NCBI GenBank assembly: GCA_934215995.1
Contig: CAKQBC010000051.1
Location: forward strand, 1 to 10,964
DNA length: 10,964 bases
Source of the DNA: an uncultured Bacillus sp.
GTDB lineage: Bacteria > Bacillota > Bacilli > Bacillales > DSM-1321
Direction: 5' to 3'
Positions 6,887 to 9,118 of the stretch are shown here, one piece after another. The notes beneath the pieces were generated by a model. It was given only the letters and a program-made list of their open reading frames with translations, was not told the DNA's origin and searched no databases. Made by a program: the position numbers and the translations under genes. Position 1 is the stretch's first letter; every line of letters starts with the position of its first letter.

Positions 6887-6916
6887 AAAGGCAACAGTTC
6901 ACCTGTTGCCTTTTTT
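6887..6916 (+). terminator. Rho-independent terminator of dus
   Basis: A perfect 11-bp stem (AAAGGCAACAG, 6887-6897, with its complement 6903-6913) has a five-base loop and a run of six T (6911-6916). It starts six bases after the dus stop. Read from the other strand the T-run is only three bases, so it probably serves dus mainly and the converging small gene at 6925 only weakly. Confidence 0.9.
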
Positions 6917-6924
6917 GCGTTTCA

Positions 6925-7128
6925 TTAAAAGTTTATCAACGAGTCAAACATATCCCCAATCAGCCGGCCTGCCCCTCTAATCATCCAAAAGATCAGGCGG
7001 AACGGTAAGAGTATCAGTTCCGGAACCCAGCAAAGGACATCGGTAACAAAGTCCCAAAAAGTGTATTGATCGTTGCTTTTCCTGGCTTTTCTTGTTTTGG
7101 CTTTCCTTTTGCGCCACCATTCTTTCAT
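6925..7128 (-). CDS. Small, highly basic membrane-type protein of unknown function
   Basis: I do not recognise this 67-residue protein. Residues 2-17 (KEWWRKRKAKTRKARK) carry ten Lys/Arg and one acid; the rest is hydrophobic and aromatic, with Trp25, Trp34 and Trp48 and a stretch VLCWVPELILLPFRLIFWMI (31-50) long enough to cross or lie in the membrane. It ends in GAGRLIGDMFDSLINF. The basic end probably stays in the cytoplasm or binds lipid head groups or nucleic acid. Start ATG 7128 is chosen over an in-frame ATG at 7164: on the minus strand AAAGGG (7143-7138) precedes 7128 by nine bases, while 7164 has no SD and would fall about eight bases after the predicted transcription start. It converges on dus and diverges from the ECF sigma gene. 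A perfect ECF-type promoter lies upstream (7204-7179), which suggests an envelope-stress role. Confidence 0.7.
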   Translation of the reverse strand: MKEWWRKRKAKTRKARKSNDQYTFWDFVTDVLCWVPELILLPFRLIFWMIRGAGRLIGDMFDSLINF

Positions 7129-7168
7129 TTGAACCAACCCTTTATTATAGATTGCCAATGGCATTTGT

Positions 7169-7180
7169 TACATATATGTA
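7169..7180. repeat. 12-bp palindrome over the predicted start site of the small minus-strand gene
   Basis: TACATATATGTA is a perfect palindrome. It starts at the last two bases of the CGTA -10 box of the minus-strand ECF promoter and covers the expected transcription start near 7171-7173, a position where a repressor could act. A second imperfect repeat, TGCC-AAT-GGCA (7153-7163), lies further into the leader. A palindrome this AT-rich can arise by chance. Confidence 0.4.
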
Positions 7181-7204
7181 CGGTTGAAGGTTCGTTTCGT
7201 TTCA
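7179..7204 (-). promoter_or_regulatory. ECF sigma promoter (TGAAAC-N16-CGTA) of the small basic membrane protein
   Basis: On the minus strand TGAAAC (7204-7199) and CGTA (7182-7179) are separated by exactly 16 bases, a full match to the sigma-W-type consensus of Bacillus. Transcription should start near 7172 and give a leader of about 44 bases before ATG 7128. The first eleven bases, TGAAACGAAAC, match the sigma gene's own promoter (TGAAACAAAAC) at ten positions, so the same sigma factor may read both. Whether the neighbouring sigma or a sigma-W homologue is used cannot be decided here. Confidence 0.72.
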
Positions 7205-7434
7205 ATAATTTGCAAGTTGTGTTGCTGTAATGCGGCCTGTGAAAAACAAAAAGAGTGCTTTATACAGGCACTCTTATCTTGGTGATACACTCCCAGATAA
7301 ACCTTGGGAGCTGAAAATCGGGAACAGGCATTATTGGGCCTGACCGTTTTTATGGATTCTGCAATGATAATCCGCCCACATTTTTACACAATGGCTGCAC
7401 CTTTTAAGGTTGATGATAAAATCTATTCGAAAAA
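7205..7434. other. Non-coding stretch between the divergent ECF promoters
   Basis: About 230 bases without a convincing gene on either strand. It holds a minus-strand terminator (7242-7275), a small inverted repeat CTCCCA/TGGGAG (7288-7293 and 7303-7308) and a weaker one CAGGC/GCCTG (7325-7342). I see no known riboswitch core. A tiny minus-strand frame of about 22 codons ending near 7260 has no SD and is not called. Confidence 0.5.
7242..7275 (-). terminator. Orphan minus-strand intrinsic terminator
   Basis: AAGAGTGC (7251-7258) and GCACTCTT (7268-7275) form an 8-bp stem with a nine-base loop. Read on the minus strand it is followed by a T-rich tail (TTTTTGTTTTT, 7252-7242), so it ends transcripts coming from the right. 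No minus-strand gene lies there, so it may end an antisense or small RNA, or shield the small gene's promoter at 7204. Confidence 0.65.
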
Positions 7435-7460
7435 TGAAACAAAACTTTACTCTAAACGAC
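7435..7460 (+). promoter_or_regulatory. ECF sigma autoregulatory promoter (TGAAAC-N16-CGAC)
   Basis: TGAAAC (7435-7440) and CGAC (7457-7460) are 16 bases apart, 28 bases before the sigma start codon. ECF genes usually transcribe themselves, so this is most likely the element recognised by the sigma factor encoded next. The CGAC -10 resembles that reported for sigma-X more than the CGTA of sigma-W. The predicted start is near 7467, giving a leader of about 20 bases that still includes the SD (AGGGGG, 7475-7480). Confidence 0.8.
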
Positions 7461-7488
7461 AAGTATATAGAGACAGGGGGAGAGAGGG

Positions 7489-8016
7489 ATGGGAGGTACG
7501 ATTGATTTTGGAGAAATATATGAACGGTATTATCGCGATGTGTACCATTTCGCGCTTTATTATACGAACAACCGCCAGGAAGCGGAGGATATAACACAAG
7601 AAACCTTTCTGAAGGCAATGAGGAAAATCGGGTCGCTTCAGAATCACGACAAGCTGAAGCCATGGATATTGGCAATTGCGAAGCACACAGCAATAGACCA
7701 GAAGCGGAAAAGCAAATTTACCGGACTGTTTCCTGATTGGGTTTTCGATAAGGCGGATGAAGATACGAAACCGATCGAACAACAAGTGGAGGACAGGGAA
7801 GGCTGGCAGAACATCCAGGGGGCTCTCCTTAAGCTTAAGCCCCATTACCGGTCTGTCATCATCCTAAGAGGGCTTAAGGAGCTGACCGTGGAGGAAACAG
7901 CATTTGCCCTTAATTGCAGGGAACAGAAAGTGAGAGTCGATTATCACCGAGCGCTGAACAAGTTAAGGAAGCTTGTAAAATCTGAACAGGAAGGGTGGAG
8001 CATAAAAGATGAATGA
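7489..8016 (+). CDS. ECF RNA polymerase sigma factor
   Basis: A 175-residue sigma-70 family protein with only regions 2 and 4, as in extracytoplasmic-function sigma factors. Region 2 spans about residues 10-75: YERYYRDVYHFALYYT, then QEAEDITQETFLKAMRKI (30-47) and region 2.4 KPWILAIAKHTAID (57-70), which reads the -10 element. After a linker, region 4 covers about 107-163, with LKLKPHYRSVIILRGLKELT and a helix-turn-helix TVEETAFALNCREQKVRVDY (133-152) that reads the -35. The usual VKSRLHRAR of the recognition helix is replaced by VRVDYHRALNKLRK, still compatible with the fold. ATG 7489 follows AGGGGG by eight bases. A consensus ECF promoter precedes it, and the anti-sigma gene overlaps its end by eight bases, so the two proteins are made together. 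The family lacks a clear B. subtilis name; similarity to SigX, SigV or SigM is not strong enough to assign one by eye. Confidence 0.92.
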   Translation: MGGTIDFGEIYERYYRDVYHFALYYTNNRQEAEDITQETFLKAMRKIGSLQNHDKLKPWILAIAKHTAIDQKRKSKFTGLFPDWVFDKADEDTKPIEQQVEDREGWQNIQGALLKLKPHYRSVIILRGLKELTVEETAFALNCREQKVRVDYHRALNKLRKLVKSEQEGWSIKDE

Positions 8017-9118
8017 AGATAGAAACGAACCGATTGATCAAAAAATACTTGAACCTTTGAAAAGGCGTCCGAATCTTGAGCCTGACACACAATTTATAAG
8101 CAGTCTGCGTACAAGGCTTATGGACGAAGCGAAACGTTCCTCGCGGATTCCTGTAAAGAAGCCTGCGTTAGTATATTTGTCAGCTTCAGTGTTGGCGGCA
8201 ACCCTATTATTCATGCTTGCAGTTCCATACCTTCCTTCATTCACTGATCATGCATCAGAACAGCCTGCAGAAAAGAAGGGGGAAGTAGGAAGCATGTCTT
8301 TTGAAGAGATAATCGCAGAAAATGATGCGTATAGTGAATTTTACGATATGGTCAGTAAGGTCCTCAATGGTCCGTATCTTATTGGATCAGGACCTGCAAA
8401 GACAACCGTCTATTATTTTGAATCCTTGAGGATTGGCGATGCCGAAACTCTGGCGGCCTATCTGTTTGAAGGAGACTTACAGACAGCACAAAAGCTGATT
8501 GAGCACTATGGAGGGATGGACCATACTTCCATTGAGTTTGAGAAAATGGTGCAGATTGAGGATGGTGAAAGTTACTACGATATATTCTTTACCTACTTGG
8601 ATTCCGGAGAAACGAAGAACGGAAGCTTCCTGCTTAAAACGGTGGGAAAAAGCACTTATATACATGACGTTCCGGACGATGAGGTGAAAGATTACGGCTT
8701 GCCTGAGGGAGATAACTTAAACTTTAAGCTGACTGAGGAGGAAAGCGAAGCCTATGAAAGGTTTGCTCTTGATCATAACAATGAATATCTGAAAGGACTG
8801 TCGCCGATCAGCATTGCCAAGCTTTATATTCAGGCTCAGCTCGATAGCGATTACCATACGAAATATGCCCTTTACACCTCAAGGGAAGACCATCAAATGT
8901 GGACATTGGAAGAGGAACTGGAAAAAGCAGAAGGCGACATGCTTTCAACAGGTGCGCTCCTTGATTCATTGGGATGGGTTCAGGAGGGGGAATTCATTGT
9001 CGATGATGGGATATCCGGCCATATAGAATTCACTGATGAGTACGGGAACGTGAGAGGCTTCAACATGATCAGGGATGAAGACGGCATATGGAAGGTGACG
9101 TTTCTTCCTATCCAATGA
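8009..9118 (+). CDS. Probable membrane anti-sigma factor with duplicated extracellular domain
   Basis: A 369-residue protein with one membrane helix (about 53-75, PALVYLSASVLAATLLFMLA). It begins with roughly 50 cytoplasmic residues that include EPDTQFISSLRTRLMDEAKR (24-43), the expected sigma-binding segment. No HxxxCxxC zinc motif is present, so it is not a ZAS-type anti-sigma. The remaining 290 residues are outside. Two stretches look alike: around 130-222 (AKTTVYYFESLRIGDAETLA ... DGESYYDIFFTYLDSG ... IHDVP) and around 270-367 (AKLYIQAQLDSDYHTKYALY ... DGISGHIEFTDEYGN ... VTFLP). Each has a helical start and a strand-rich end, as in NTF2-like/DUF4878 domains. The gene starts in the last codons of the sigma gene, with AGGAAGGGTGGAG (7988-8000) before ATG 8009. 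The role as anti-sigma is inferred from position and topology; the ligand or protease signal is unknown. Confidence 0.8.
   Translation: MNEDRNEPIDQKILEPLKRRPNLEPDTQFISSLRTRLMDEAKRSSRIPVKKPALVYLSASVLAATLLFMLAVPYLPSFTDHASEQPAEKKGEVGSMSFEEIIAENDAYSEFYDMVSKVLNGPYLIGSGPAKTTVYYFESLRIGDAETLAAYLFEGDLQTAQKLIEHYGGMDHTSIEFEKMVQIEDGESYYDIFFTYLDSGETKNGSFLLKTVGKSTYIHDVPDDEVKDYGLPEGDNLNFKLTEEESEAYERFALDHNNEYLKGLSPISIAKLYIQAQLDSDYHTKYALYTSREDHQMWTLEEELEKAEGDMLSTGALLDSLGWVQEGEFIVDDGISGHIEFTDEYGNVRGFNMIRDEDGIWKVTFLPIQ

Follow-up and report, generated by a model that had tools for sequence, protein, structure and literature searches.

SigX/RsiX, SigM and SigV are autoregulated operons of an ECF sigma factor and a membrane anti-sigma factor. 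For B. subtilis, the accessible part of one report describes common consensus elements and overlapping regulons for sigma M, V, W and X (PMC5126115). The published sigma-W consensus, as given in the accessible text of another, is TGAAACN16,17CGTA (PMC2375139), and sigma-W and sigma-X targets are described in an excerpt of a third as differing only in −10 nucleotides, which a region-2 loop recognizes (PMC8103513); the sigma-W regulon is also treated in PMC3498285. A literature search on ECF sigma factors in Mesobacillus found nothing.

Here, we analyzed a 10,964-nucleotide stretch of DNA from an uncultured Bacillus sp. (contig CAKQBC010000051.1 of assembly GCA_934215995.1; hereafter, the window), in which an ECF sigma gene and a small membrane-type protein gene face apart across a 360 bp gap, taken as the interval between their two start codons. 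A first-pass annotation of the window had proposed that a matched pair of divergent ECF promoters in this gap joins the sigma factor, its anti-sigma factor and the small protein in one self-contained regulon. On the evidence below, we consider it very likely that the locus is instead an autoregulated ECF operon next to a small membrane protein gene with a sigma-W-type promoter, with two different readers. As a side observation on the window, its dus gene is 73% identical to that on a record labeled as a Stutzerimonas stutzeri plasmid (L237; NZ_CP078511.1, 2312-9036); the genes around the latter look Bacillus-like, and the record may be a contaminating contig.

Two divergent boxes in the intergenic gap

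Both boxes were verified in the sequence as the first-pass annotation had described them, with the same −35 hexamer and a 16-base spacer. The minus-strand box, TGAAACGAAACGAACCTTCAACCGTA, runs from 7205 to 7180 (TGAAAC 7205-7200, N16, CGTA 7183-7180) and is the candidate sigma-W-type ECF promoter of the small gene, an assignment consistent with its fit to a matrix of small-gene sites. The plus-strand box, TGAAACAAAACTTTACTCTAAACGAC, runs from 7435 to 7460 (TGAAAC 7435-7440, N16, CGAC 7457-7460) and is the putative autoregulatory ECF promoter of the sigma/anti-sigma operon, as suggested by the boxes of relatives and by matrix scores. The promoters of the small gene and of the sigma gene do not have the same −10 element (CGTA vs CGAC).

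When the 360 bp gap was shuffled with its dinucleotide composition kept, none of 20,000 shuffles gave a strict divergent pair (TGAAAC-N16-CGW on each strand), and loosening the spacer to N15-17 raised this to 3 of 20,000. Over the whole window, at least two matches to TGAAAC-N15-17-CGW were present in 20 of 200 shuffles (mean 0.59), which makes the pair only mildly unusual on that scale. The shuffles led us to reject a chance origin for the gap pair, and the family loci described below did so for the small-gene box. We also rejected the extension TGAAAC-N-AAAC, which had been put forward as shared by the two boxes, as a common element: it is rare in both site classes (0/33 small-gene-class sites and 1/31 sigma-class sites) and hence is not conserved.

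Several hairpins were seen between the promoters, at 7251-7275 and 7290-7342, one of them terminator-like on the plus strand and another having a T-rich minus-strand tail. The terminator-like hairpin at 7251..7275, listed on the minus strand for its T-rich tail, had z-scores of −2.85 (minus strand) and −3.28 (plus strand). An Rfam search for RNA elements in the gap returned just two weak matches, far under the gathering scores. A DNA search with 6890-7488 against 193 relatives' genomes found matches in nine, all inside the small-gene part of the query, and the hairpin part of the gap had no DNA match in any of these genomes. The hairpins could possibly be a small RNA, or the terminator of an unseen transcript.

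The sigma operon and its CGAC box

The sigma gene (7489..8016, plus strand) encodes a 175-residue protein whose only domains are sigma-70 family regions 2 and 4 (PF04542 at residues 10-76 and PF08281 at 107-159), as defines an ECF sigma factor. In NCBIfam, the protein passed the cut-off for TIGR02937, the general ECF model, and scored under the cut-offs of the other 24 models among the 25 listed (of 93). A Mesobacillus selenatarsenatis protein shares 74% identity with it.

The sigma gene is overlapped by a gene for a 369-residue protein (8009..9118, plus strand) that has a single hydrophobic segment, near residue 54; an overlapping one-TM protein is retained downstream of sigma in the closest relatives. 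Judging from gene position, this protein is the probable membrane anti-sigma factor. It matched no Pfam or NCBIfam family, and its modestly confident structure model (mean pLDDT 71.6, pTM 0.41) suggests alpha+beta domains beyond the hydrophobic segment. A cystatin-like protein accounted for two structure matches at E ≤ 0.001, whose TM-scores were poor (0.16-0.19); NTF2-like matches had weaker E-values and TM-scores of about 0.4-0.5 on the target. The weak matches include a domain pair of C. thermocellum RsgI9.

A scan of named genomes for the sigma factor gave 80 loci. In 38 relatives (L001-L026, L111 and L145-L155, with a few genomes represented twice, e.g., by L019 and L150), boxes were sought in the 150 bases that precede the match. 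Of the 38, 31 had an exact [T/C]GAAAC box, and all 31, which represent 21 distinct site strings, had CGAC as the −10 element and none CGTA. The other seven comprise six Lysinibacillus loci with TGTAAC and CGACTTATT and the locus L026, which had no box in the 150 bases upstream. In a further scan, 12 of 30 sigma loci were distant relatives (L156-L167; 41-45% identical) that lack a TGAAAC box and carry TGTAAC with CGATTAAT, CGAATAAT or CGAGTTAT. The CGAC statement therefore holds for the closer sigma relatives, and the distant ones favor CGTA no more; their TGTAAC boxes suggest that promoter specificity drifted within the sigma group.

We followed the box across 21 genomes of Mesobacillus, the genus of M. 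selenatarsenatis (genome G001, locus L001). The strict motif TGAAACAAA-N12-14-CGACTTRTT occurred once in each of four genomes and not at all in the other 17, with 0 matches to a reversed-pattern control in all 21. A sigma match (E ≤ 1e-30) was found in those same four genomes and in them only, and the motif site lay at sigma's own gene alone. Since CGAC was found in 31 of 31 boxes and the motif tracks the presence and absence of sigma, these results support the plus-strand box as the sigma operon's own, probably self-activated promoter, in line with the ECF autoregulation that the first-pass annotation had assumed. Elsewhere, two genomes (G007 and G008) have four and three matches to sigma, respectively; one of the four contains internal stops, and each of the three in G008 has its own TGAAAC-CGAC box.

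A wider CGAC regulon was considered and rejected, as the strict motif in Mesobacillus marks only sigma's own promoter. A looser motif, TGAAACA-N14-16-CGACTT, matched 19 sites vs 36 for the reversed-pattern control in 27 genomes, which is background level, and was also found in 3 of 17 genomes without sigma. In ten sigma carriers, it matched 16 sites (vs 11 for the control): 12 lie at sigma or one of its paralogues, and four inside open frames of at least 120 codons, one on the opposite strand. Seven looser-motif sites lie away from sigma genes; six are inside open frames of at least 120 codons, on either strand, and the seventh (L196, in a genome without sigma) is outside such frames. Because the looser motif is at background, weaker targets of the sigma factor are possible.

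The small-protein family and its CGTA box

The small gene (6925..7128, minus strand) encodes a 67-residue basic membrane-type protein. An ATG at 7128 is preceded by the ribosome-binding site AAAGGG (7138..7143, minus strand), which supports the 67-residue start over a 79-residue start at 7164; the protein has a net charge of +6, and its most hydrophobic 19-residue stretch spans residues 32-50. Neither Pfam nor NCBIfam gave a match at E ≤ 0.01. Searched as a single sequence against 5.8 billion proteins, the small protein had only two close homologues, P0001 and P0002, which could share the window's gene arrangement, and an alignment search returned 164 homologues. Among the 120 homologues listed, those with names are 'hypothetical' or 'uncharacterized protein', one being also 'YqzE family' in UniRef. 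Relatives are widespread in the order and occur in several named genera: the family was found in 19 of 21 Mesobacillus genomes, in 34 of 193 genomes of a family sample and in 96 of 397 genomes of an order sample, about a quarter. Start codon, ribosome-binding site, charge, hydrophobic stretch and relatives all indicate that the protein is real, as first annotated; it belongs to a separate, widespread and unnamed Bacillales family.

We compared the upstream regions of 50 small-gene loci (19 from Mesobacillus, 11 from the family sample and 20 from the order sample), drawn from the best 30 of 34 family matches and the best 30 of 97 order-sample matches; two weak small-protein matches with internal stops (L086 and L087) were left out of all counts. 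A box of the form [T/C]GAAAC-N15-17-CGTA was present within 350 bases upstream in 33 of the 50 loci, against a chance expectation of 0.07. The same scan gave CGAC in 0/50 and CGTT in 2/50, and a downstream control gave the CGTA box in 0/50. The exact CGTA box was absent from 17 loci; among the 31 non-Mesobacillus loci, four had one-mismatch CGTA boxes, and a further locus, L085, had no exact one. All 18 Mesobacillus loci with a box had CGTA.

In 18 Mesobacillus loci (L081-L083, L088-L101 and L103), the CGTA box is followed by an ORF of ~54 residues with two CxxC motifs and then by the small gene. This ORF gave weak zinc-finger-like Pfam matches under the cut-off; it is partial in L082 and L098, where it may be broken. 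The 19th Mesobacillus locus, L102, had neither box nor Cys-rich ORF, and in the window no ~54-residue CxxC ORF was seen between the minus-strand box and the small gene.

In relatives, the small gene showed neither a positive association with sigma nor linkage to it. Fifteen of the 19 Mesobacillus genomes with the small gene lack sigma, and in the family sample sigma was missing from 30 of 34 small-protein genomes at a cut-off of E ≤ 1e-35 that also lets in relatives of about 40% identity. Both genes were found in 4 of 193 family genomes (about 8.1 expected) and in 13 of 397 order-sample genomes (about 11.9 expected); each of the 13 has them on separate contigs. One genome (G012) has the two on one contig, about 612 kb apart, and they were adjacent in none of the 14 distinct genomes with both. 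The small gene was not found in the flanks of 30 sigma loci (of the 80), nor a sigma match at the 31 non-Mesobacillus small-gene loci.

Probable readers of the two boxes

We scored both boxes with matrices of the two site classes. The plus-strand box scored 21.7 with the sigma class vs 7.5 with the small-gene class, and the minus-strand box −0.6 vs 18.3, where the leave-one-out minima were 20.8 (sigma) and 15.9 (small gene); each box lies at the low end of its class, with 1/21 sigma sites and 2/28 small-gene sites lower. Because the small-gene matrix was built from sites picked for CGTA, it is circular at the −10 positions; the 0/50 count for CGAC is not. With a matrix of the Mesobacillus small-gene sites alone, the minus-strand box scored 7.5, under the class minimum of 22.2; it is without the T-run that is common after the −35 element in those sites.

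All 21 Mesobacillus genomes had a SigW match above the curated cut-off, and in each of them the box upstream of the SigW gene itself was [CT]GAAAC with CGTA. Outside Mesobacillus, SigW was present in 61 of 64 genomes, that is, in 43 of 44 with the small protein and 18 of 20 without. SigW is almost ubiquitous, so co-occurrence with it was discarded as an uninformative test; no SigW match was found in G378, a genome whose small-family gene (locus L235) has a CGTA box. From its presence in relatives, we assume that the window's organism has SigW. In our own placement, the putative region-2 loop is LQNHDKLKPW in the window's sigma factor vs FNQNLKFSTW in Mesobacillus SigW.

We infer which holoenzyme reads each box from the boxes themselves, from the class they have in relatives and from the distribution of the two genes. 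The gap would hold two promoters of a shared ECF −35 class with differing −10 specificity. The adjacent ECF sigma factor would read the plus-strand CGAC box and turn on its own operon, which includes the probable membrane anti-sigma factor. A housekeeping sigma-W, not the adjacent sigma factor, would most likely read the minus-strand CGTA box, and this sigma-W-type promoter would drive the small basic membrane protein of the unnamed family. A sigma-W homologue, which the first-pass annotation had raised as a caveat, is the better explanation for the minus-strand box.

A milder form of this explanation, whose odds overlap with it, keeps sigma-W as the main reader and lets the adjacent sigma factor, when fully active, read the minus-strand box weakly, so that the small gene would receive two stress inputs. 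The −35 hexamer and the spacer are identical, and ECF regulons overlap in B. subtilis as far as the accessible part of PMC5126115 describes them; the minus-strand box might therefore be readable by both sigma factors. However, its score with the sigma matrix falls below the leave-one-out minimum of that class by more than 20 units, and we regard such weak reading as unlikely.

We find it very improbable that the adjacent sigma factor reads both boxes, with sigma, anti-sigma and small protein forming one stress module in this lineage. Such a module would fit the same −35 element, the same spacer, the head-to-head placement and a pair in the gap that is not due to chance, and proximity could have put the gene under the adjacent sigma factor in this lineage only. 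However, none of the 31 sigma-relative boxes has CGTA, CGTA is retained at the small gene where sigma is absent, and elsewhere the two genes show neither positive association nor linkage. Moreover, the strict motif in Mesobacillus carriers lies at sigma's own gene only, and the looser-motif sites of carriers lie at sigma or its paralogues (12) or inside open frames (4). A shared regulon of sigma and small gene is not supported, and the view of the small protein as its effector gives way to that of a separate family, often without sigma and unlinked to it, with CGTA and never CGAC at the 50 loci. It is scarcely credible that the small gene has a sigma-A promoter and that the minus-strand box matches by chance: a minus-strand match does exist at 7171-7144 (GTAACA, N16, TATAAT; 10/12), but two sigma-A-like matches in the region compare with 1.5 expected, the CGTA box recurs far above chance in the family, and a start from this match, which we place near 7137, would exclude AAAGGG at 7143-7138 from the transcript.

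With sigma-W and the adjacent sigma factor as separate readers, look-alike divergent ECF promoters need not make one regulon; here, two −10 bases and cross-genome conservation separate them. We lean toward the view that the small-protein family is a conserved sigma-W-type stress target, placed in the window head-to-head with an ECF switch that acts only on itself, possibly with two inputs. A widespread unnamed family of small membrane proteins, nearly always left hypothetical, would then be a candidate envelope-stress (sigma-W-type) target.

Compared with described systems, the window's sigma factor differs from the named Bacillus ECF sigma factors in falling under their curated cut-offs (among the 25 models listed). 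The operon differs from those of the SigX/RsiX type in that its candidate anti-sigma factor belongs to no Pfam or NCBIfam family and in the single strict-motif site per genome in the four Mesobacillus carriers. It resembles the SigX/RsiX, SigM and SigV operons in that the sigma gene is overlapped by a one-TM gene and has its own upstream ECF promoter. The minus-strand box, lying upstream of the small gene in the form TGAAAC-N16/17-CGTA that marks a sigma-W promoter, is an exact match to the consensus of the sigma-W regulon of B. subtilis and its relatives.
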